21,438 nucleotides of DNA from a virus. The notes below the pieces were generated by a model, which was given only the letters and a program-made list of their open reading frames with translations, had not been told where the DNA came from and searched no databases. The stretch is from IMG/VR virus record IMGVR_UViG_3300033388_005609, positions 1-21,438 of that record; one strand, written 5' to 3'. The translations under genes and the position numbers were made by a program. Shown piece after piece: positions 1 through 18,883 of this stretch; position 1 is the first letter of the stretch; every line of letters begins with the position of its first letter.

Positions 1-781
1 CACCATCCTGAATGAGCGAACTTTCAACAACGGCAAAGAAGTTATTGAAACTCCGATTCAGTCTGTTGTTGCAGCAACTAACTCTTTCCCAAACGAGGAG
101 AGTCTGCAAGCTTTCCTCGATCGTTTCTTGTTTCGACCGACAGTCAATCTCCTACAGAAACCAGTCAGCAAACGAATGCTTGACCATTGGTCATTGGGAC
201 TAGAGCCACGCCCGTTGATCGAATCAAAACTAACTGCAGATGATTTGTTGACCCTGCAAAAAGCTGCAGCACGAACGGGTCCCAGCAAAAAATTCGCTGA
301 AGTGTTTGGCGAAGTGATGAACCGATTGGATTCTGCAGGAGTGGAGGTATCTGATCGTCGTCGCGTGGTGAAAGGGTCTGACGAGATCACTCCCAGCATG
401 CTTCTCGATACTCTTCCTCACATCCTGTACCAAACAGAAGACGACAAGGATGCCATTCTCGAATGCTTACACGCATCTATTGTCACAGCCGAGAAGATTC
501 AAAAAGATATTTCTAACGCTGCTAACTCTGTTATGCACACCTTCTACGAATGGAACAGTAAGAAAGCAACCGACATCAGTGCTCTCAACGAGTGTGCTCG
601 GCAAGTGCGCAAGTGTCACAACGATATGAATCTGATCATTTCTAAACTGCGCGATACTTTAGATGATGAAGATCTAGAGGTTACAGAGCAAGCCAGACTC
701 AAACTAATGAAGCTCTACACACAAAGCGAAGCCGATCTCAATCGTATTACTAAAGCTCTTGAACGTTTCACTACTAACTAA
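1..781 (+). CDS. MoxR/RavA-type AAA+ ATPase, C-terminal part (5' end outside window)
   Basis: The frame is open from base 2 to the TAA at 779-781 and enters from outside the window, so only about 259 C-terminal residues are visible. The first residues read TILNERTFNNG, followed by VVAATNSFP and FLDRFLFRP. This order (LNER-F-NG, sensor-1 Asn in AATN, then LDRFLFR) is the signature of the second half of MoxR-family AAA+ modules, and is closest to RavA. The Walker A and B motifs must lie upstream of the window. The rest is alpha-helical and charged, as expected for the AAA lid and a C-terminal helical domain. MoxR ATPases act as chaperone-like remodellers, usually with a VWA-domain partner. That partner gene starts 2 nt downstream, which implies translational coupling. 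An ATG at 128 lies inside the AAA motif region and is not the true start. Confidence 0.85.
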   Translation, partial: TILNERTFNNGKEVIETPIQSVVAATNSFPNEESLQAFLDRFLFRPTVNLLQKPVSKRMLDHWSLGLEPRPLIESKLTADDLLTLQKAAARTGPSKKFAEVFGEVMNRLDSAGVEVSDRRRVVKGSDEITPSMLLDTLPHILYQTEDDKDAILECLHASIVTAEKIQKDISNAANSVMHTFYEWNSKKATDISALNECARQVRKCHNDMNLIISKLRDTLDDEDLEVTEQARLKLMKLYTQSEADLNRITKALERFTTN

Positions 782-783
782 TC

Positions 784-2346
784 ATGAAAAAGCACAAAGC
801 AAAATCACCTCAGATCAAAACAGAGTTCGTCAAAGTTTCCAACAACGACCCTCTGGTTCTACTCGTTTCACCTTTAACAGATTTTTTATGGGAAGACTTT
901 GTTCGCGACTCTGCTCCACGGGTTAAGTATCTGGCGAATCACTACGACATCAGTAAACTTTCTCGGTTCGGCAAAGAACTCTTCGAGGCTTTGTACCAGG
1001 GCGAAGATGTCACTCCTGTAATTTCACTTCAAGACGCAGAGGATTACTTCCGCGCAATACAAGATGAAGAACAAGCAGCGCCTCCAAAAAACTACAAACC
1101 AGAAAATGCTTTTTGGATTGGTCTCATGCAAGACGTGGTGAACTCAACCGCGTGGCTTAGCGTGTCTCCCGTGTGTTATGGCAACCAATGGAACTCAGGT
1201 AATAACTCTATTTGTATTCTTAATCGACTCAGTGAAGTTCTGACCCAGCAAATTGATCAAGCTTTGCTCGATGCCACGGCGTTGAGCGAGGCTGCTCAAG
1301 AGTTAGAAGACTTACGTCAACGGTATGTACAAGCAAAGAAGGACGGTGATTTGAAGAAAGCAAAGGAGATTCGCGAAATGGGTAAACAGCTGGGAAGCAG
1401 CATCGAAAAGTATCAGAACCAGATGCGCGAGGAGATGCGCCCTCAGGTACAAGAGGCTGTTAATAAAGCAATGCAAGAAGCCAAGGACATAAACCAAGCC
1501 ATGTCTAATCTCGCAGGAACAAATGAGGGGAAAGAAAATCGCAGAGACTTAAGTGAGCAACGTGATTTAGCCAACAAACTAAGAAACAATAAGGAGCTAC
1601 TTCGTTTAGCCAATCGACTTGGTGCATTGCGCCGAGCATGGACCAAGCGCAAGAGAGCACGTATGAACCGATCTACTTACAGCGATATAGTCGGAGTCAA
1701 GTTCTCAGACTCAATACATCAAGCGCTTCCCATTGAGCTGGCATTGGCTGCCACGGAGGAAGGTCGAGCATTGTTTGCTCTCAAATACTCCCAGAAGAAT
1801 CTTCTCAGTAAGGACTACGAGGCTCCAACAAGGAACCTTGATCGAGGACCCATCCTTATGTACGTAGACGTAAGTGGATCCATGCACGGAGAGTCAGAGC
1901 TGTGGTCCAAAGCTATGGCTTTCGTTGTGGCAGAGGAAGCTTTAAAGCAAAAGCGTGAGGTACACATATGTTTGTTTGATGTCAGAGTGCGCCAGCGGTT
2001 GGTACTCAAACCTGAGACACCTAACAAAGAAGAGCTGTTAAATTTTTGCTTGAGCTGGGTATGTAACGGAGGCACCTGTTTCGACAAAGTGCTAACAGAT
2101 GCTATGGAGCACATGTGCTTCACAACACGAACTGACATCCTTATGATTACTGATGGTAATGATGGTGTTGATGCGGATCTGTTAGAGACCTTTGTGGAAG
2201 GAAAGAAAGATTTCGGTGTGGAAATGAACTGCTTCTGCATCGGAGAGATGAGTAATACCCTACGCTTATTTGCAGATGATGTTCGCGAAGTCAACATTGA
2301 AAACGACGCTGACTCCTCTGAATTGTTTCAAAATGTCCTGTTGTAA
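784..2346 (+). CDS. VWA-domain protein (ViaA/CoxE-like partner of the MoxR ATPase)
   Basis: This is a 520-aa protein. Its C-terminal third is a von Willebrand factor A domain with an intact metal site (MIDAS): DVSGS at D362/S364/S366, the Thr of NGGT at T431, and the Asp of MITDG at D457. Residues about 160-300 are Lys/Glu/Gln-rich and likely form long helices or a coiled coil. The N-terminal region has no motif I recognise. MoxR ATPases and VWA proteins occur as gene pairs in bacteria; in E. coli RavA and ViaA form a complex and influence metalloprotein maturation. The ATG at 784 sits 2 nt after the ATPase stop. Size and architecture match ViaA (about 480 aa). The pairing and intact MIDAS make a functional complex likely; the client is unknown. 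Confidence 0.85.
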   Translation: MKKHKAKSPQIKTEFVKVSNNDPLVLLVSPLTDFLWEDFVRDSAPRVKYLANHYDISKLSRFGKELFEALYQGEDVTPVISLQDAEDYFRAIQDEEQAAPPKNYKPENAFWIGLMQDVVNSTAWLSVSPVCYGNQWNSGNNSICILNRLSEVLTQQIDQALLDATALSEAAQELEDLRQRYVQAKKDGDLKKAKEIREMGKQLGSSIEKYQNQMREEMRPQVQEAVNKAMQEAKDINQAMSNLAGTNEGKENRRDLSEQRDLANKLRNNKELLRLANRLGALRRAWTKRKRARMNRSTYSDIVGVKFSDSIHQALPIELALAATEEGRALFALKYSQKNLLSKDYEAPTRNLDRGPILMYVDVSGSMHGESELWSKAMAFVVAEEALKQKREVHICLFDVRVRQRLVLKPETPNKEELLNFCLSWVCNGGTCFDKVLTDAMEHMCFTTRTDILMITDGNDGVDADLLETFVEGKKDFGVEMNCFCIGEMSNTLRLFADDVREVNIENDADSSELFQNVLL

Positions 2347-2869: not shown

Positions 2870-3643
2870 ATGCTCATTTCATTCACACTTGGTTCCACCA
2901 AACTCGACAAGTCTGAATCCAACGCTCTTCTTTCGCTGTGCTCAGAGGGAAGCATCACTATCGATCTCCTGAAACACATGAAAGGAGTTACAAGTGAAAA
3001 GGTTTTTGCTAAAGCTGTTGAGGATAAAAACCCTAAGCTGGCAAGCCTGGCAGCAAAGCTTGCCATGGAAGGAGGAACGCGATTCAATCCCTCCCCAAAA
3101 AGAAAATATCAAAAGTCCGGTAAGACATCAGTAGCAGCTGTCGTCACAGTATCGAAGGATCCTTTCGACGCACTTCACGAGATCCTCGCCAACAACAAGC
3201 TTAAGAATGTGGGAGCTGCAATGATCTTGAACTCACTGTCTGATGGACACTCCAGGAACCTGAGAGAGATTGCAGAAGACTGTGTAAACCACCTTGCTAA
3301 CTTCAGTTATGTAAGTCCCGATGAAGCTCCACGGCTGTTTAGGGGTTTTGAAAAAACAAAGCGCGGTTACGTTGCCCTCATCAGTAAGACCACCGACCGC
3401 AACGCTTATCACTCATCACCGATCTACACAGCCATGCGTGAAGGATTGAAGTACCTCCAAAGCGTAGGCTTGGTCAACCTTCAGAAAGAGGTGAGCTTCG
3501 GTTCGATCGATAAAAGCGATGGGGACTTTGAGTCCCATCTGCAACGAAAGGTGTACATCGTGTCACTCAATAAGAAAGGTATGCAAATTATGCGCAACTG
3601 GAACGATTCAGAAGACTTCATTGCAAACTTCTGGAAACAGTGA
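2870..3643 (+). CDS. Hypothetical protein, 257 aa, possible winged-helix C-terminus
   Basis: The N-terminal 75 residues are helical. Residues about 80-105 form a basic, low-complexity linker (PSPKRKYQKSGKTS). The C-terminal half is a well-folded-looking alpha/beta region: helices at about 180-200 (SPIYTAMREGLKYLQSVGLV) are followed by two strands separated by an acidic loop (KVYIVSLNKKG). This helix-helix-hairpin pattern resembles a winged helix-turn-helix, but I cannot identify a family. ATG 2870 is the first start in the frame and has only a weak purine run upstream. It is the last gene before the strong terminator at 3669-3702, and a candidate promoter precedes it, so it may be transcribed alone as well as with the genes upstream. 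Its role is unknown; DNA binding is a guess. Confidence 0.7.
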   Translation: MLISFTLGSTKLDKSESNALLSLCSEGSITIDLLKHMKGVTSEKVFAKAVEDKNPKLASLAAKLAMEGGTRFNPSPKRKYQKSGKTSVAAVVTVSKDPFDALHEILANNKLKNVGAAMILNSLSDGHSRNLREIAEDCVNHLANFSYVSPDEAPRLFRGFEKTKRGYVALISKTTDRNAYHSSPIYTAMREGLKYLQSVGLVNLQKEVSFGSIDKSDGDFESHLQRKVYIVSLNKKGMQIMRNWNDSEDFIANFWKQ

Positions 3644-3668: not shown

Positions 3669-3702
3669 GGAGGGCGCTTAGTGGGAGTGCCCTCCTTTTT
3701 TT
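3669..3702 (+). terminator. Strong rho-independent terminator
   Basis: GGAGGGCGC at 3669-3677 pairs with GTGCCCTCC at 3687-3695 (9 bp with one G.U) around a 9-nt loop, followed directly by seven T residues at 3696-3702. It ends the first plus-strand unit after the 257-aa gene and lies 35 nt before the polymerase start. It also argues against starting the polymerase at GTG 3681, which falls inside the loop. Confidence 0.9.
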
Positions 3703-3737
3703 GTCTAAGCGTCAACTCCAGCTCTGATCGAGATCAA

Positions 3738-5651
3738 ATGGACTTCACCTTCTCCTACATCACGGACGACGCCGAAGCTCTGGCAGCAATTGAGAAGCTT
3801 CACGGTTCCGAAAAACTTTGCCTTGACTTTGAGACCACTGGTCTGGATTGTCGCATAGCCAAGCCACGCCTTCTGCAGCTTTGTTCTTCCTCGACTGAGG
3901 TTGAAGAGCGGGAAGTAAGTGTCTTTGATTTCTTCAAGCTGTCTCATAAAACCATCTCGAAACTTCTATCGCTGGTAGAGACCCGTGAGATGCTGGTCGG
4001 ACAGAACCTTTACTTCGATGCTCAGTTCCTATTCGCTCTGGGTGTCGATTTCAGAGGCAAAGTTTTTGACACTATGATCGCAGAACGCGTACTGCGTGCA
4101 GGATACAAAGAAGTTAAGTTCAGCCCAAAAATAAATAAGAAGTACTATGCAGAGATTTCTAACTCACTTAAAGCTATAGCTGAGCGTAGACTTAACATCG
4201 AAGTCGAAAAAGAAGAACAGAGAAGTGATTGGTCTGTAGACGAACTTACTGACTCTCAAATTGAATACGCAGCTAAGGACGTAGCCATTCTCCCTGAGAT
4301 CGCAGCTGATCAACTAAAGGAGCTGACCGAGGAAAACCTTCTTCCTGTCTACGGTTTGGAATCTAAGATCATCTTCCCAGTGGCGAAGATGTCTTACACA
4401 GGCTTCAATGTTGATATCACTAAGTTGAAAGCTCTAGAAGCTGAGATTGAGCAGGAGCTTGACAGACTCACTACGATATTTTGTGAGTCATTAGACGAGC
4501 GACTTCCCGATGGACACAAACTCCCACGAGGATTGGATGGCTCTATTTCAGTCAGCAAGAACATCAAGAAAGGATTTAACCCAGGATCCAACGCTCAGTG
4601 CCTTAAACACTTCGAAGTTGTTGGCATCGATGTACCAACTAACTATGCAACAGGAAAACCGACGCTCAGCCAGATCGACTTAGCTGAGTTTGCCAGCGAC
4701 GACGAAACCCTTAACCATCTGCGTAGGAGAACGAAGTGTGAAACTCGCCTTGGTCATGTTAAAAGGTTGCTTAGTAACATTCATCCTCTTAGCCATCGTA
4801 TCCATAGTGGGTATAAGCAGTACGGAGCTAACTCTGGACGCTTTACTTCGGTGGGCAGCAAGCGGGTCGCAGCCTCAAAAGTTAAAACAGAATTCGCAAT
4901 AAACTGCCAGCAGATACCACGCGACAAGAAGTTCCGAGAGTGTTTCGTTGCGTCACCCGGATACAAACTGATTGTCTGTGACTTCTCTCAGATTGAACTG
5001 CGTTTGGGTGCGGAGTTAGTTCCAGTCCCGCAGATGATGCAAGCGTTCATGGAGGGCAAAGACCTTCATACTGTGACTGCAAGCCTGATCCACCAAATAC
5101 CATTCGAAGAGGTAACAAAAGAACAAAGACAACAGGGCAAGACTATGAACTTTGCGTTGCTTTATGGTATGGGTTATAAAAAGTATCGCACCTACTCAGC
5201 CCAGTCAGGGAACATATTGACCCTTTCAGAGGCAAAATTAAATCACGCAGCGTTTCACAGGGCGTACCCGCAATTAAAATCGTGGCATAAAGACTGCGCC
5301 AACCTTGTAGAAGACGGGTGGACTTACAGTCGCACAGCCACGGGTAGGAGGCGTCTCCTCTCTTACGATGACGCTTCTATGATGGTTTGTGCTAACAACA
5401 CTATTCAGGGAGCTGGAGCAGACATCCTGAAAATATCTCTCGCCAATTTAGTAGAGAAGATGGAAGGGGATGACGTAAGGTTAATTGCATGCGTGCATGA
5501 TGAGATTGTGATTGAAGCTGTAGAAGAAAAAGCTGAACACTACAAGAAGATACTGGAGCAGTGCATGAAGGAAGGAGGGGAAAAAATCCTCAAAGAAGTG
5601 CCCGTACTTGCAGACGCTGCTATCGGAGAAAACTGGGCGGAAGCCAAGTAA
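3738..5651 (+). CDS. polA: Family A DNA polymerase with 3'-5' exonuclease
   Basis: This replicative polymerase has 637 aa from ATG 3738. The N-terminal DnaQ-like proofreading domain has all three motifs: DFETTGLD (D30, E32), NLYFDAQF (D94) and YAAKD (Y177, D181). The polymerase domain has motif A CDFSQIELR (D415), motif B RQQGKTMNFALLYG (R464, K468, F472, Y476) and motif C VHDE (D588). The C-terminus GENWAEAK matches the usual end of the family. There is no 5'-3' exonuclease domain, as in T7-type phage enzymes. F472 aligns with E. coli Phe762. The frame is open back to a GTG at 3681, but that codon lies in the terminator hairpin, so I place the start at ATG 3738. It is the first gene after that terminator. 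Confidence 0.95.
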   Translation: MDFTFSYITDDAEALAAIEKLHGSEKLCLDFETTGLDCRIAKPRLLQLCSSSTEVEEREVSVFDFFKLSHKTISKLLSLVETREMLVGQNLYFDAQFLFALGVDFRGKVFDTMIAERVLRAGYKEVKFSPKINKKYYAEISNSLKAIAERRLNIEVEKEEQRSDWSVDELTDSQIEYAAKDVAILPEIAADQLKELTEENLLPVYGLESKIIFPVAKMSYTGFNVDITKLKALEAEIEQELDRLTTIFCESLDERLPDGHKLPRGLDGSISVSKNIKKGFNPGSNAQCLKHFEVVGIDVPTNYATGKPTLSQIDLAEFASDDETLNHLRRRTKCETRLGHVKRLLSNIHPLSHRIHSGYKQYGANSGRFTSVGSKRVAASKVKTEFAINCQQIPRDKKFRECFVASPGYKLIVCDFSQIELRLGAELVPVPQMMQAFMEGKDLHTVTASLIHQIPFEEVTKEQRQQGKTMNFALLYGMGYKKYRTYSAQSGNILTLSEAKLNHAAFHRAYPQLKSWHKDCANLVEDGWTYSRTATGRRRLLSYDDASMMVCANNTIQGAGADILKISLANLVEKMEGDDVRLIACVHDEIVIEAVEEKAEHYKKILEQCMKEGGEKILKEVPVLADAAIGENWAEAK

Positions 5652-5686: not shown

Positions 5687-6247
5687 TTGGAGATTACAAA
5701 TATCCCGGCTGAGAAGGAGATCTTTACAGCAAAGACTGACCTAGGTTTTGTCGGATGCTGCAGGATCGATCAAGGGATTGTCTTCACTTCTGAAGTATTC
5801 CCTAAGGCACTTGTTGCTGCTAATGCTGCTAGACGATTAAAGAAAGAGCTGAATACTGGCACTAAACCAACACTCAAGGCAGTTTCTGAAGTTACGAAGA
5901 AGCCCACGGCTTCTAAAAAGAATCAGAAGAGTGTTAAGCCACTTAAACAAAAAGGTACAAAAAGATCTAAAAAGTCTCTAACCTACGCCTGCACGCTTTA
6001 TACAGCGGAAGAAATTGAAACCATGCCGCTGCTTAGTTTCCGCGAAGTTTGGGTAATAACAAGGTATGGCGATTACGTTTCCGATGCCTTAAACCATGAG
6101 AAGAAAAGACTGGTAGCTTACTGTGGCACAAAAGAATCAGCTAAGCCATACGGATGTCACGAAGAAGCCAAGCGAGTTATGAGAACTCTGAAAGGAGTTG
6201 TAGGACCAGGATTCAACCTACAAAGGTTCTTCGTCAGAACAGATTGA
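5687..6247 (+). CDS. Hypothetical basic protein following DNA polymerase; start uncertain
   Basis: The frame is open from GTG 5561, but residues encoded before about 5648 look like an out-of-frame reading of the polymerase C-terminus (Arg/Cys-rich). Protein-like sequence begins near VTVLVSWQHKDSP. There is no ATG or GTG in that zone; TTG 5687 is the first usable codon after the polymerase stop, giving 186 aa. The protein has an N-terminal beta-rich part, a central Lys/Ser/Thr-rich linker (about residues 65-105 from TTG 5687) and a C-terminal part including a Cys/His stretch (YGCHEEAKRVM) and the end NLQRFFVRTD. No family is recognised. It probably shares a transcript with the polymerase. Confidence 0.6.
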   Translation: MEITNIPAEKEIFTAKTDLGFVGCCRIDQGIVFTSEVFPKALVAANAARRLKKELNTGTKPTLKAVSEVTKKPTASKKNQKSVKPLKQKGTKRSKKSLTYACTLYTAEEIETMPLLSFREVWVITRYGDYVSDALNHEKKRLVAYCGTKESAKPYGCHEEAKRVMRTLKGVVGPGFNLQRFFVRTD

Positions 6248-6283
6248 GGCTGTTAAAATAAGTCCTAAAGCGTAATCGTAGAG

Positions 6284-7558
6284 ATGGTCAGCTCTGCAAA
6301 TACAAACCAACAATCTTCCCGACGTGGGCAACCTGGGAGTCGGTTGTTGAATCTTCTGGACAACGAAGATTTTATTTCTGGTATTGCGCAGCGGTTGAAC
6401 TCAGCACGGGACCTTGAGAACGCGCAGCGTTTAGACGGCACGGACGCACAGGCGACTAGAGAGAGTATCGAACGATATGCAGGCGATGCATTTAAAAACG
6501 CTGCAGCTGGAGGAACAACTGCCGTAGGCGGCGCAAAGCCGATTAACATCCAAGCTTCTTCTACAACAACTTCCCCAGTTGCAGCGGAAGATTCTGGAAC
6601 TGAGACGGTTCGAGGATTAGAGCAAGTCGACAGTCCAGCTACTGGTGGTCAAGGTTCATCAGGAAGACCTGGAAGTAGCTACGTCAAATCAACTGGAACT
6701 GATACTTACTATTCGAACCTTTTCCCACGGGAAGTAACTGAGACTCAGATCTTCGGTCGAGGAGCAAACACTCTGGGTTACCAAACTGGAGGTAAAAACC
6801 CTGCAGTCAAAACCACTTATGAGTATCTCGGTACTCCTTTGCCTCCCGTTGAAGCAGGCAGCGGAGGCGGTGACGGAGGGGGTGCCACTGCTACAGCTAA
6901 CGCCACTGTCAACTTCACCCCTCAGCAAAAAAAGGAGGACCAATTCTTAGAAAGAACTTTGCGGTCGTTCATCGGTGATCAATCCGGTGAACTGGATACC
7001 ATTGGTGCTCGCGGCATCGGTGAGTACATGGGATACTACGGTGACAAGTTTGGTGGCAACGAGGAGATCCTCGCGAAGGCACGCCAAGAAGGAATCAAGT
7101 TTGGTCCCACGGCAGCTCAGACGCTTGGCATTAACACTGATACCAGTTCTTACCGAGGTGATCAAGATTCAACTGAAGGTGCAATTGGTCTTGAGGCAGT
7201 CAAGCGTATGCGCAATCAAGGCTTAAGTGACACTGCAATCAAACAGTTTGCTCAACAACAGGGTATTAAGTACGGACCTAAAGCTTTAGAAGCTCTTGGT
7301 GCAGATCCCAGCCAAGCTTATCAAGCACCTGCCGCAGCTCCTGCAGCAGCACCGGCTCCATCACAAGCAGCTAGGGAAATTGCTGCGACTTACCAGACAG
7401 GTTCAAATGTGCCTCAGTCCAGCGGGGGTGGTCAAGCAATTGGTGAACAGGGTCTGATGAACATGGCTGCTGCCAGAGGTATTACTTTCGCACAAGCACG
7501 CGACCAAGCACGGTCAGCTGGCATGCAGATTGGAGCAAAGGCAGCCGCACGTCGTTGA
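6284..7558 (+). CDS. 424-aa Gly/Ala-rich protein with three copies of a helical module
   Basis: The first 60 residues are polar and helical. Residues 70-220 are low-complexity, rich in Gly, Ser, Thr and Pro. Three related modules follow at about 229-283, 291-339 and 383-422. Each has IG..G, a helix, a turn with Gly, a second helix ending in G(I/M)..G, and a short helix with K/A-A. Examples are QQQGIKYGPKALEALG in copy 2 and SAGMQIGAKAAA in copy 3. An Ala/Pro linker (346-362) separates copies 2 and 3. The next gene encodes a single free copy of the module. Composition suggests a virion or scaffold-like protein, but the surrounding replication genes leave other roles open. ATG 6284 has a weak GTAGAG upstream. 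No signal peptide or membrane segment is seen. Confidence 0.8.
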   Translation: MVSSANTNQQSSRRGQPGSRLLNLLDNEDFISGIAQRLNSARDLENAQRLDGTDAQATRESIERYAGDAFKNAAAGGTTAVGGAKPINIQASSTTTSPVAAEDSGTETVRGLEQVDSPATGGQGSSGRPGSSYVKSTGTDTYYSNLFPREVTETQIFGRGANTLGYQTGGKNPAVKTTYEYLGTPLPPVEAGSGGGDGGGATATANATVNFTPQQKKEDQFLERTLRSFIGDQSGELDTIGARGIGEYMGYYGDKFGGNEEILAKARQEGIKFGPTAAQTLGINTDTSSYRGDQDSTEGAIGLEAVKRMRNQGLSDTAIKQFAQQQGIKYGPKALEALGADPSQAYQAPAAAPAAAPAPSQAAREIAATYQTGSNVPQSSGGGQAIGEQGLMNMAAARGITFAQARDQARSAGMQIGAKAAARR

Positions 7559-7603: not shown

Positions 7604-7801
7604 ATGACTATTTCTCAATCCGCCTCTTTGTCAAGCTTCATTGGTGAGCAAGGCAAGCAAGGAACTATTGGCTTGGCTGCACTGAACCGTGCTCGCGAGT
7701 TTGGTTACAGCGATGCACAAATTAAAAATCAACTGGCAGAAGAGAAGTTAGGCTTGGGTTGGAAAGCAGCCGCAAGCCTGTTCGGTATCGAAGTTGAATG
7801 A
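7604..7801 (+). CDS. 65-aa protein: single copy of the repeated helical module
   Basis: Residues 12-61 (beginning FIGEQGKQGTIGL and ending KAAASLFG) line up with the three modules of the preceding 424-aa protein. They share the SFIG(D/E)Q opening, the IG.G.L.. helix, a Gly turn, a second helix, and G..(W/P)KA...LG. The first 11 residues are a short Ser/Gln leader. ATG 7604 is 45 nt after the upstream stop, and the 3' end overlaps the next gene by 8 nt. It probably arose by duplication of a module or is a regulatory or assembly partner that interacts with the larger protein. The function of the module is unknown to me. Confidence 0.75.
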   Translation: MTISQSASLSSFIGEQGKQGTIGLAALNRAREFGYSDAQIKNQLAEEKLGLGWKAAASLFGIEVE

Positions 7802-8342
7802 GCACTACACCCTAATCGGGTACAGAAACAACAAGACCAGATCAATCGGTGTTGTTGCTAACGACAGTTACCACGCTCAGGCTCAGGCTCTCGACATCAG
7901 TCGGGCGTTAGGGCTTGAGCGTTTTACTTTGGACTACAACCACAAGAGTGTCCAAGATCCTGTGAGCCAACTGTTCCAGGACCTCGCATACAATAACTTC
8001 AACCACTCAGTCTGTTATGAGTGGGAAGGATCTTTCTCCAACAACTCTCCAGTTCTTTACGCCTTTGGGACTAGGTTCTACCTCAGAAACCTCATCCTCG
8101 ACTACATGGATATCAGAAAAGACAGCGTGGTTAAAACCGAATGCAATAATAAAGAATGTGTTAACCCATACCACTTCTCATATAAGACAGACAAAGCATC
8201 TAAATTGACTGGCGGCGACAAGAAAATGCTGTTAGCTTTCCATGGCCAAGGCGCAAGCGTTTCGCAAATCGCCAAGGCGTTAAACGTACACCGCTCAACT
8301 GTTTACCGAAACCTCAATGAACATCTTCATGCTGGGCCTTAG
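7794..8342 (+). CDS. HNH-like protein with C-terminal resolvase-type helix-turn-helix
   Basis: This is a 182-aa protein. Residues 117-127 (CNNKECVNPYH) match the C..(x)C.NP.H core of the HNH_3 group of homing-type nucleases: C117, C122, N124, P125, H127. The His expected a few residues before the first Cys is absent (the sequence is VVKTEC), so nuclease activity is doubtful. Residues about 141-176 form a helix-turn-helix of the Hin/resolvase type (SQIAKALNVHRSTVYRNL). The N-terminal 90 residues are not recognised. It starts at TTG 7794, overlapping the 65-aa gene by 8 nt, and its end overlaps the SSB gene by 26 nt. It could be a degenerate homing endonuclease or a DNA-binding regulator. Confidence 0.75.
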   Translation: MNEHYTLIGYRNNKTRSIGVVANDSYHAQAQALDISRALGLERFTLDYNHKSVQDPVSQLFQDLAYNNFNHSVCYEWEGSFSNNSPVLYAFGTRFYLRNLILDYMDIRKDSVVKTECNNKECVNPYHFSYKTDKASKLTGGDKKMLLAFHGQGASVSQIAKALNVHRSTVYRNLNEHLHAGP

Positions 8343-8964
8343 GGTCACAGACACTGCTCTCGAGCAGGAAGGACTCATCAACCTAATTGCTGAAGCTTTA
8401 CCCGCAAGCGAAAAACGAACTCCAACCAAAGTTCAACTCATTGACAAACCTGGAAGCTACGTCGCCAATCAGCTGAAAAAATTCGGGGAGGGTGACCACT
8501 TCCTTGCAATCGGACCAACAAAACCATTAGCTGATGGCGAAGGTCTTAAGATGAAACCCATGTTGGTTGTCTCAAAGGATAGCTTTGATGACATCCTTGT
8601 CATGAATCTCTTCATGGCCACAGGTGGTCTTGGTCCCAAGAGTGACGAGGTGACGATGGGAGACACCACTGTCACCAATCGTTCTATTGCTTGGCAAGAC
8701 GAAGACAAAGAGACGCAGTGGTTCAAACTTTCTGCTTGGGGTGAAAAGAGCAAGCAACTCTCTGATCTACCCGCAGGAACTCCTACTATCGCTGTTGGCA
8801 AAGTCTCCAGCAGTTCTAAGGACGATAAGCAGTTCTTGAACTACAGCGCAGACAAAGTCCTGTATCTCCCACGCGGATCTAAACCTACTCCTAAGAAGGC
8901 TTCTGATCCAGACAAAGGCAAAGTTGCAGCCAATGCTCTTGGATCCGTTAACTTCGACTTCTGA
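8317..8964 (+). CDS. ssb: Single-stranded DNA-binding protein, probably with two OB folds
   Basis: This is a 215-aa protein. Residues about 96-187 read like a bacterial SSB: an MNLFMATGGLG opening, NRSIAWQDEDKETQWFKL, AWGEKSKQL, and a G(T/K).(T/I)(I/V).VG strand, which is the usual SSB order (N-S-A, TxW, aWG, KG..v.V.G). The first 90 residues follow the same plan (MNIFMLG opening, NLIAEAL, a strand before GSYVANQLKKF, FLAIG), so a second, diverged OB fold is likely. A Lys/Pro linker precedes a short C-terminus ending in NFDF, which resembles the acidic-aromatic SSB tail that recruits partner proteins. It would coat ssDNA during phage replication. The ATG at 8317 overlaps the upstream gene; ATG 8329 is an alternative. 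Confidence 0.8.
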   Translation: MNIFMLGLRVTDTALEQEGLINLIAEALPASEKRTPTKVQLIDKPGSYVANQLKKFGEGDHFLAIGPTKPLADGEGLKMKPMLVVSKDSFDDILVMNLFMATGGLGPKSDEVTMGDTTVTNRSIAWQDEDKETQWFKLSAWGEKSKQLSDLPAGTPTIAVGKVSSSSKDDKQFLNYSADKVLYLPRGSKPTPKKASDPDKGKVAANALGSVNFDF

Positions 8965-9000: not shown

Positions 9001-9819
9001 ATGCCATACATCGCTGGAAAATTCGACGCTGACGAAATTCTGTGTCAGGTCCCGCCGCACACGTTACGAGTCGATCTTCAGGCTCGTCGTTGGAAATCCG
9101 ATAACGATCCTGACGCCGCCATCACGGACCAGAACGATAACGGAATCCCTATCGATTTTGTTCTCTTGGGTTTCACGCCGTTCTTTGGGAACCTGGGCAT
9201 GCGTTCTCACGAGGAGTTCATTCGTATTGCTTACATTGGTGTTAGCCCTACCCATCGCTTGCTTCCTAAGCGTTGTGTTTCTACTACTATCCTCAGCGGC
9301 AAATCTTCCCAAAAGAGTTTCATCAGTTACTTCCAGACTCTTTACAACAACCGAATCAACGTTGCTGAAGTAATTACTTCAACGAAGTTCACAGCTCGTA
9401 GTTTCAGTGACACTGACCCCACGACGGGTGAAGACAAGGGTAAGATCAACTATAACTTTGTTGAGTTCAAGGACCGCCCTGCTAATGGAGAAGAGGAGGA
9501 GTCACTTATCAAAGACATTGAAAAGTGGCTTGATGGAGACGGAGGAAATCTGGTGGCTTCTGCACTTAAATCTAATATCTCCGGTTCGAATCTCATCGAG
9601 CTTCCTATGGGAGAGGACCATGCTGCGCTTAAGGAAGCTTTTATCGAAGCGAACCCTAAGCGTTTAGAAGGTGCTCCCGTTGGCGGACTTGCTTCTCTTC
9701 CACCAGGTGCTGGAGTTCCCGGAGCTAAGTCCGCACCTCCCACACCAAAAGCTTCAAGTAAAAAAGAACTCTCTGACGAGCAGCTCAAGGTGCTGAAGGA
9801 AGCAGGAATGGGGCTATAG
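9001..9819 (+). CDS. Hypothetical 272-aa protein next to SSB
   Basis: An N-terminal beta-rich domain (about 1-160) contains conserved-looking segments such as IDFVLLGFTPFFGNLGMR and YIGVSPTHRLLPKRC. It is followed by an acidic helix (residues about 160-180, EEEESLIKDIEKWL), a second helical part, and a Pro/Ala/Gly-rich tail (about 225-255) leading to a terminal helix. No catalytic motif or membrane segment is visible. It lies 36 nt after ssb on the same strand and is the last gene before the hairpins at 9854-9931. A replication-associated, possibly ssDNA- or SSB-interacting role is plausible from position only. I do not recognise the family with confidence. Confidence 0.7.
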   Translation: MPYIAGKFDADEILCQVPPHTLRVDLQARRWKSDNDPDAAITDQNDNGIPIDFVLLGFTPFFGNLGMRSHEEFIRIAYIGVSPTHRLLPKRCVSTTILSGKSSQKSFISYFQTLYNNRINVAEVITSTKFTARSFSDTDPTTGEDKGKINYNFVEFKDRPANGEEEESLIKDIEKWLDGDGGNLVASALKSNISGSNLIELPMGEDHAALKEAFIEANPKRLEGAPVGGLASLPPGAGVPGAKSAPPTPKASSKKELSDEQLKVLKEAGMGL

Positions 9820-17647: not shown

Positions 17648-18883
17648 CTAGCTCTGCTTAACCTTGATTGCCCAGCCGTCGTGATTGTTCTCTACCAACC
17701 AACGCTTCCCTAATTTTTCTTTGCTGTACACCTTGTTATATCCATCGGCAGAGAGGTAAATTCCTTTTTCGAGGTCCAGTTCACCAAAGGGATCGTTAAC
17801 GTATATCCCTTTACCATCGGGAGTGATTCCTTTTGCCAGTATCCAATGTCCCCCACCCGACGGGGCATCAAGAGGCCCTCGGTGAAGAATGCCGATGGGG
17901 CAAGGAATGTCACTACGCAGCAAGTCCTCAACATCGCCCCAGCTGAAGTCTTGGCGGAACTCGGCTTCAACCCCGAAACTACCGAGCGCTTGAAGTTGAA
18001 CCCACGCTTCTGTAGTGTCACCAATAGAGAAGACAACTTTGATGTATTCATCGTCATTTGCAATACTGTCAGGTTTTAAATAGTTAAGAAGCATGGCACA
18101 CGTTGAAGAGTAGCATGTGCGGTCTGCGTCTCTGTAGTTGTCCCGCTGGGAAAAATACTCTACATCGAGATTGGGAGCAGACGCTTTTTTGTATGTCGCT
18201 GCATTGTCTGGAACATCATTGATTATCTTCCAGTGAGGTTCCCAGATGTACCATTTCTTTTGGTCAGAACAAAGACGCACTTGCTGATGCGAACTACCAG
18301 CGAACATCGTCAGCTCGATCCACTCCCACGCTGCTCCTTTAGGGACAAAGACTTTTTCCTCCGGTTTGAGTTTGTTTGAGTCAGACATCCGCTTTTTCAG
18401 CCATGTGTCTTCTTTCGCAAGAATCGACTGACCAAGTCTTGGGTGTTTCGACTTCTCTAGAAATAATTCTTTCTCTGCGGCTCGACGATTCACTAGACCC
18501 TGCAGCGGTTTGCCATCAGAACCTTTTACCCAACGATCAAACTGATCAGCTACTTCTTTTCGAGAAGCTCCTTCGTTCAACAAACGAAGCAGAGTCGACT
18601 TGGAATACGCTCCACAACCAACATTGAAACTGAAACTTACCAGTGCGTCATACTCGTTTTGGTTGATCTGAACGTTGGTCCAGGTGCTAACGCACTGCTC
18701 AAAGCTTTCTAAGTCTTCACGCAAAAAAGCCTCAGCTTCTTCCTCGGTAATGGTCATACCAAGAGTCACTCCTTGCGTATGTCCGTATCCAATGGTGGGT
18801 ACGTTGCTGGGACACAGGTAGCTTTTTAACCGCATCCCCTCAAACTTCTTGATCAGGGATAAACCCTTGTCAGAAATTCTCAC
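17648..18883 (-). CDS. Bifunctional endolysin: GH24 muramidase plus C39-like peptidase
   Basis: This is a 411-aa protein with three parts. Residues 1-145 are a phage-type lysozyme: E15 in FEG, then LCPSNVPTIGYGH with T30; Cys24 stands where many relatives have Asp, a known variation in lambdoid/P21-like enzymes. Residues about 155-232 look like an SH3-type wall-binding module. Residues 238-411 form a C39_2-like cysteine peptidase: YFSQRDN (Q246), TCYSSTCAMLL (C257), GGGHWILA (H346) and VNDPFG (D364), a complete Cys-His-Asp set. It would cut both sugar and peptide bonds of peptidoglycan. No signal peptide is seen, so it needs a holin; the membrane protein 9 nt upstream in the operon is a candidate. 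GTG 18883 is forced by an in-frame TGA four codons upstream. Confidence 0.88.
   Translation of the reverse strand: MRISDKGLSLIKKFEGMRLKSYLCPSNVPTIGYGHTQGVTLGMTITEEEAEAFLREDLESFEQCVSTWTNVQINQNEYDALVSFSFNVGCGAYSKSTLLRLLNEGASRKEVADQFDRWVKGSDGKPLQGLVNRRAAEKELFLEKSKHPRLGQSILAKEDTWLKKRMSDSNKLKPEEKVFVPKGAAWEWIELTMFAGSSHQQVRLCSDQKKWYIWEPHWKIINDVPDNAATYKKASAPNLDVEYFSQRDNYRDADRTCYSSTCAMLLNYLKPDSIANDDEYIKVVFSIGDTTEAWVQLQALGSFGVEAEFRQDFSWGDVEDLLRSDIPCPIGILHRGPLDAPSGGGHWILAKGITPDGKGIYVNDPFGELDLEKGIYLSADGYNKVYSKEKLGKRWLVENNHDGWAIKVKQS

Follow-up and report, generated by a model that had tools for sequence, protein, structure and literature searches.

MoxR and VWA genes at the start of the contig

The window, meaning the whole stretch of DNA analyzed here, is a complete IMG/VR record of 21,438 bases and is probably a fragment. 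Its first open reading frame (positions 2–781, + strand, open at the 5′ end, stop codon at 779–781) encodes the C-terminal 259 residues of a MoxR-family AAA+ ATPase and contains the motifs LNERTFNNG, AATNS, and LDRFLFR. Residues 1–86 of this translation match the Pfam family bpMoxR (PF20030) with 53.2 bits against a cut-off of 27, and a match (1.3e-19) was also obtained to phrog_19600, labeled “ATPase”. Because the record begins inside the gene, at the contig end, the Walker A motif and most of the N-terminal half of MoxR lie outside the window. The MoxR stop codon is followed after 2 nt by the start of a ViaA/CoxE-like VWA protein of 520 amino acids (784–2346, + strand), which scores 28.6 bits against VWA_CoxE (cut-off 26.4) and 58 bits against the ViaA model.

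The VWA protein consists of a conserved N-terminal domain, a helical middle, and a C-terminal VWA domain with a complete MIDAS. The metal site is formed by D362, S364, and S366 of motif 1, D-V-S-G-S (residues 362–366; 1867–1881, + strand), together with Thr431 (GGT; 2074–2076, + strand) and Asp457 (ITDG; 2152–2154, + strand), all invariant in a 21-row alignment, and DxSGSMxG and the other MIDAS motifs were found in 105/105 members of the VWA family. In a predicted model, this domain matches VWA structures including the MIDAS of MDN1 (Foldseek, E down to 1e-7). The original prediction had read these first lines as an AAA+ C-terminal signature lying 2 nt from a VWA protein with a complete MIDAS, and as a MoxR/RavA-type ATPase with its VWA partner, and both readings are borne out by the open reading frames and by the profile scores above their cut-offs. 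The first open reading frame encodes a MoxR of the RavA-like (bpMoxR) branch and the second its ViaA/CoxE-like VWA partner, and both are phage-encoded.

Conservation of the gene pair and a deletion in one copy

Searching viral contigs with the VWA protein as query identified 27 loci (42–66% identity), and from an alignment-based scan the best 80 of 105 relatives were retained. The 105 loci counted throughout consist of 27, 77, and the window; as some contigs were fetched by both scans, this set includes repeats, and its distinct sequences number 70 for MoxR, 75 for VWA, and 67 for g4, a third gene described below. Intact MoxR proteins in the relatives are 391–397 amino acids long, with the Walker A motif GxPGTGKS at about residue 43 in 96/96 full-length copies, so the P-loop that had been expected upstream of the window, where the contig end cuts the gene, is present in the family. 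The other motifs recur as AATNS in 90, the DRFLFR type in 96, and SDRRR in 95 of these 96 copies. At 24/26 loci showing both genes, MoxR and VWA are separated by a gap of 1–2 nt or overlap by 4–10 nt, a spacing that suggests translational coupling and that we count in favor of the function preferred below. Median dN/dS values of 0.03–0.04 resemble that of the DNA polymerase and are rough, since dS is largely saturated; on this sequence measure, the module genes are under strong purifying selection.

Phages were already known to carry MoxR–VWA pairs; one occurs in phage 0305phi8-36 (PMC2147016) and another is found in phage CL131. All isolates related through the MoxR or VWA gene are distant, and two scans of genome contigs with near-exact motifs, a setting that covers near relatives, found no close chromosomal relatives. 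A MoxR-like AAA protein with a VWA protein is also the architecture of metal chelatase subunits (CobS/CobT or magnesium-chelatase-like), the function suggested by the cyanophage label “cobS”, and there is a weak PHROG hit to “porphyrin biosynthesis” (E 8e-5). However, the full-length MoxR proteins of the relatives score 188–191 bits against bpMoxR, which places them in the bpMoxR/RavA branch, neither the MoxR nor the VWA proteins match the CobT/CobS families, and no catalytic chelatase subunit is adjacent. We consider a chelatase role very improbable.

The window copy of MoxR carries an in-frame deletion of 11 residues (33 nt) after the sensor-2 motif SDRRRV, with its junction placed by alignment at 367–368 (+ strand). 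The deletion is specific to this copy: the missing residues read QIIQFLRGYAV in relative L025, the columns are filled in every other copy covering the site, and the only other gaps there belong to four copies ended early by their contig ends. At the junction the sequence GTG GTG is found. The intact sensor-2/lid region is not present in the window’s own MoxR, and as the deleted segment is part of the small AAA+ subdomain, either this MoxR may be non-functional or the gap may be an assembly error. That the MoxR of this one contig is damaged or misassembled and its module not working, which would fit any reading at the level of the lineage, is a serious possibility that we nevertheless rate on the less probable side. 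It draws on the unique deletion and on the truncation of MoxR at the contig end, against which stand the preserved reading frame, an intact VWA gene with its full MIDAS, and the conservation of the lineage as a whole.

A third gene within a replication block

Directly upstream of MoxR, 95/105 loci encode a protein of about 402 amino acids, here termed g4, and some of the remaining loci are too short to show it. No g4 was found within the window, its expected position lying beyond the window’s 5′ end. The original prediction of a phage MoxR–VWA pair stands as to the names of the two families and falls short as to their number, the unit being more than a pair. The relatives have a fixed order on one strand: a 141-aa protein, g4, MoxR, VWA, a 142-aa protein, a 260-aa protein, and DNA polymerase A. 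Downstream of VWA in the window, all on the + strand, are a 141-aa protein of unassigned function (2386–2811; family g8, 96/105 loci; no Pfam match), a 257-aa protein of unassigned function between the module and the polymerase (2870–3643; family g2, 101/105 loci), and, as the last gene of the conserved block, a family A DNA polymerase with a 3′-5′ exonuclease (3681–5651; DNA_pol_A 1.7e-61, exonuclease 1.4e-21; 99/105 loci). These neighbors point to DNA replication, adjacency not being proof of function. They give no support to the roles in host enzymes, virion, defense, or metal handling that had been suggested from the pair, and none was found elsewhere.

Among contigs chosen by their terminase, MoxR and g4 were both present in 8/8 of at least 66 kb, and two shorter contigs were without both. 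The trio g4–MoxR–VWA belongs to the core genes of the lineage, and its presence in 8/8 speaks against an optional accessory gene. Its location also bears on a role in virion maturation or assembly, which has been proposed for the MoxR–VWA pair of archaeal tailed spindle viruses. In bicaudaviruses, MoxR proteins carry a structural annotation, and an archaeal virus tail-assembly system has been cited as a MoxR-vWA case (PMC7159879). Against a virion role here, the genes stand beside the DNA polymerase on one strand, tens of kb separate them from the terminase in the long contigs, and the archaeal viral MoxR proteins are distant (~33% identity over 41% of the query). We regard it as improbable.

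All 67 distinct g4 proteins end in phenylalanine, which is preceded by aspartate in 66/67; position −4 is acidic in 81%, and the tail is otherwise variable. The Phe-ending acidic tail of g4 recalls the tails of SSB proteins. The window encodes an SSB-like protein (8317–8964, + strand; weak SSB match, E 0.008, below the cut-off) that ends in -VNFDF, where the tails of its family are mostly -[I/L/V][D/N]FSL. The family of the gene that follows (9001–9819) often ends in -GLDF or -GIDF, an echo of the -DF of g4, and proteins with a -DF end number only one or two per long contig. Positions 7794–8342 encode a protein that has a helix-turn-helix at its C-terminus and whose middle gives weak matches to HNH endonucleases. 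The predicted model of g4 has a pLDDT of 83 and, when compared with the PDB, showed no clear fold match and only generic helical ones. In the small body of open-access literature searched, no description of this third component and its distribution turned up. Adjacency to a sliding clamp was considered as a rule and dropped: a dnaN gene adjoins the pair in CL131 and in Alicyclobacillus, yet 17 contigs of the lineage yielded no dnaN domain.

Phage lineage and probable host

Long relatives of the window contig reach about 80–87 kb, and the lineage is common, with 327 terminase relatives in one scan. The terminase of one long relative is 54% identical to that of the Synechococcus cyanophage S-EIV1, which shares D5-type primase and ThyX families with the lineage. 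The trio is not detectable in S-EIV1 and the polymerase is only distant; in this single comparison, then, the trio and the polymerase vary together. Based on the S-EIV1 terminase kinship and the cyanobacterial plasmid relatives described below, the host of this uncultured lineage is probably a cyanobacterium. We did not find psbA in 13 long contigs, and there is thus little to indicate a set of photosynthesis genes. The terminase large subunit of S-EIV1 (846 aa; 54080–56620 of its record) holds an unannotated intein splicing domain (44.9 bits against a cut-off of 35.8), which explains its two-piece match.

An N4-like identity was dropped. N4 gp24 and gp25 are Schitoviridae core genes, AAA-like followed by VWA-like (PMC4193335); gp24 scores just under AAA cut-offs and does not resemble the phage MoxR (E 0.34), whereas gp25 is of a different VWA type (DUF2201 metallopeptidase-like/VWA). 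No open reading frame above 1000 aa, as a giant virion RNA polymerase would have, was found in four long contigs, none of them proven complete.

Relatives on cyanobacterial plasmids and comparison with known MoxR–VWA systems

Within the named collections, cyanobacterial plasmids supplied the best full-length relatives of MoxR. Acaryochloris pREC1 and pREC4 and Chroococcidiopsis pCHRO.01 and pA each encode a hypothetical protein upstream of MoxR and VWA, and the plasmid hypothetical proteins tested are g4 homologs (69–84 bits by profile; hhalign profile–profile E 1.5e-22). In all, seven plasmids and no isolate phages yielded g4 relatives, and the names in the plasmid trio records are only hypothetical, AAA/MoxR, and VWA. 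The plasmid trio agrees with that of the phages in gene content and order and has a homologous third component and the nearest MoxR in the tree, but it is plasmid-borne (conjugative by typing) and has no adjacent DNA polymerase. The plasmid g4 tail is -GF as opposed to -DF in the phages, and on the Chroococcidiopsis plasmids MoxR and VWA are separated by toxin-antitoxin-type genes. At the level of the lineage, these sequence comparisons identify a conserved three-gene module in the replication block that is shared with cyanobacterial plasmids.

In a MoxR tree whose sampling excludes chromosomal cyanobacterial RavA, and in which some branches are long, the phage proteins form one group (100/100) adjoining the cyanobacterial plasmids (97/92), and E. 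coli RavA falls outside. Of the two placements that the original prediction had offered, closer to cyanobacterial RavA-ViaA or in a clade of its own, this sampling speaks only to the latter, the phage proteins grouping together beside their plasmid relatives. In the same tree, a RavA encoded by Campylobacter phage A11a (MG065691, UNVERIFIED; open reading frame 5959–7479) cannot be told apart from E. coli RavA, with a branch length of 0. It is treated as contamination, probably from the host or the laboratory, since the two are indistinguishable; Campylobacter phage A18a has the same RavA match.

RavA is the sole PDB sequence relative of the full-length MoxR (query 8–302, E 1.3e-38), and the E. 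coli RavA-ViaA system likewise has an AAA+ module with an AAA lid and a VWA partner with a MIDAS directly downstream. The differences are the separate place in the tree, the extra third gene, and the lack of a LARA domain, which is the module by which RavA binds LdcI. No Pfam match to LARA was obtained, and the match to E. coli RavA stops at RavA residue 330, with the phage proteins ending at ~395. Against the NCBIfam equivalog models, the window fragment of MoxR, a partial gene, reached 26 of 681 bits for RavA, and the complete VWA protein 58 of 500 bits for ViaA. Judged by these sequence features, the phage pair is not a RavA-ViaA ortholog. RavA is nevertheless the nearest characterized homolog, and RavA-ViaA (PMC10585395) and CbbQO (PMC4660213) act on enzymes, which would favor an auxiliary activator that remodels a host metabolic or respiratory complex in the manner of RavA-ViaA, CbbQO, or NorQD. 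The absent LARA domain counts against this, as do the position of a lineage core gene within a replication block, the lack of a consistently adjacent metabolic gene, and the psbA result, and we judge such an activator unlikely.

The combination of MoxR, vWA, and a third component is also the plan of the MoxR-vWA ternary conflict systems (PMC7159879), and the phage trio shares it. A conflict system related to these, acting in defense, anti-defense, or competition between phages, is suggested by the name of the best Pfam family, bpMoxR, which comes from such a system, and by a NACHT gene that follows the VWA gene on one Acaryochloris plasmid. However, the module proteins and neighbors tested gave no Pfam match to VMAP, iSTAND, FtsH, or beta-propeller domains, no effector domain was seen, and PADLOC hits were only weak and in helical stretches. 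The trio is moreover a core gene set under strong purifying selection, unlike fast-varying conflict modules, and membership in a conflict system appears improbable to us.

A third gene likewise lies upstream of the pair in the DUF6744-MoxR-VWA sets of Pseudanabaena, Alicyclobacillus, and Brevibacillus plasmids and of Moorella phage MTATph1, some of which are near dnaN or SSB genes. DUF6744 was rejected as a g4 homolog, as no relation was detectable (hhalign E 0.07 or worse). On Pseudanabaena galeata plasmids (L128:13146-14719 and L134:9733-11297), DUF6744-MoxR-VWA-SSB is followed by Mov34/MPN/PAD-1 and ThiF (E1-like) genes that resemble a ubiquitin-like processing pair.

A possible link between g4 and DUF3150

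The g4 model matched models of viral proteins, among them one named DUF3150 with Foldseek probability 1.00, E 1e-4, and TM 0.36/0.47. By sequence the relationship is weak: the Pfam family (PF11348) had no match in the g4-bearing long contigs G001 and G002 or in an hmmscan of g4 proteins, and hhalign scores against DUF3150 were 35 (E 0.0009) with the plasmid g4 alignment, 28.9 with all g4, and 21.5 with phage g4 alone, with controls at or below 24.7. Across the g4 alignments used, the hhalign E-value thus ranged from 0.0009 to 0.085, at a probability of at most 23%. We treat the g4–DUF3150 relationship, which comes mainly from the predicted folds, as suggestive only.

DUF3150 is present on at least 1,119 plasmids, most of them typed conjugative, and AAA and VWA genes were found in its neighborhood on 7/7 plasmids inspected (IncC pAR060302 and six others). 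On five of these seven, bet/recT and lambda-type exonuclease genes lie within a few kb, accompanied in three by ssb; a toprim-domain gene follows the cassette on the Shewanella plasmid, and a 3′-5′ exonuclease and a helicase are nearby on that of P. shirazica. The C-termini of the DUF3150 proteins read DGDYFF, DQDCYF, NSFYF, GTFWF, DGIMLF, DVPFFY, and AAYFL, with phenylalanine last in 5/7. Like the phage trio, the DUF3150-AAA-VWA cassette of IncC/SXT-type conjugative elements has three components, its third protein having a similar predicted fold and an acidic/aromatic tail. Unlike the phage pair, the AAA protein tested from the IncC cassette is of the CbbQ/NorQ type and the VWA protein scores as CobT, and the AAA and VWA proteins of the cassettes are only remotely related to those of the phages (hhalign E 1e-6 and 3e-5, respectively). 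Gene order varies among the cassettes, mostly near bet/recT, exonuclease, and ssb genes; that of Shewanella has the phage order of third protein, AAA, and VWA. A search of viral contigs with IncC motifs found no DUF3150 relatives, and the literature searched offered no function for DUF3150 and nothing on DUF6744, Schitoviridae MoxR, or SXT cobS. Trio and IncC/SXT-type cassettes are possibly akin in plan.

Proposed function of the module

The reading that we prefer, tentatively and at somewhat less than an even chance, is that the trio is a RavA/ViaA-like machine that remodels the phage’s own replication or recombination nucleoprotein complexes, with g4 as its substrate or adaptor. MoxR subunits would form a hexameric AAA+ ring, and the VWA protein, by analogy with CbbQO and NorQD, would bind to the ring and hold a target through an acidic side chain of that target on the MIDAS metal, after which the target would be twisted or pulled by the hydrolysis of ATP. 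For CbbQO and its rubisco, mutants support binding of an acidic residue of the partner by the MIDAS metal (PMC4660213), and binding of an acid by the MIDAS has been argued for NorQD (PMC13036017). Since the partner generally supplies an acidic residue as ligand of a MIDAS metal, the tail of g4 is a candidate handle. The helical, remotely DUF3150-like g4 would be the dedicated substrate or adaptor, its nearly invariant acidic -DF tail being presented to the MIDAS or to a replication protein, and the work done would most likely be the remodeling of phage replication or recombination complexes. The -DF tail could also serve something else.

As the trio’s like stands near replication or recombination genes on many plasmids, the module probably handles the element’s own DNA and is not a borrowed gene for tweaking the host. 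Counted against a function in replication are the cyanobacterial g4 plasmids, where no replication gene is directly beside the trio, S-EIV1, which lives without the trio, and the deletion in the sensor-2 region of the window’s MoxR. A wider proposal is that g4/DUF3150-MoxR-VWA modules make up a distinct class of mobile-element AAA+ machines, which cyanophages, cyanobacterial plasmids, and IncC/SXT-type elements would each carry in parallel and in which an SSB-like, acidic, Phe-ending tail of the third protein would be gripped by the VWA MIDAS or by a replication protein as replication or recombination complexes are remodeled; this we consider doubtful.

MoxR–VWA pairs are widespread and few have a known target. 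A core set next to a polymerase, with a small dedicated third protein, offers a compact system in which the question of the target can be put directly, and if the DUF3150 link is true, the same experiment bears on a gene present on more than 1,000 sequenced plasmids, most of them typed conjugative. Elsewhere in the window, the − strand at 17648–18883 encodes an endolysin that unites a phage lysozyme domain with a C39-like peptidase domain.
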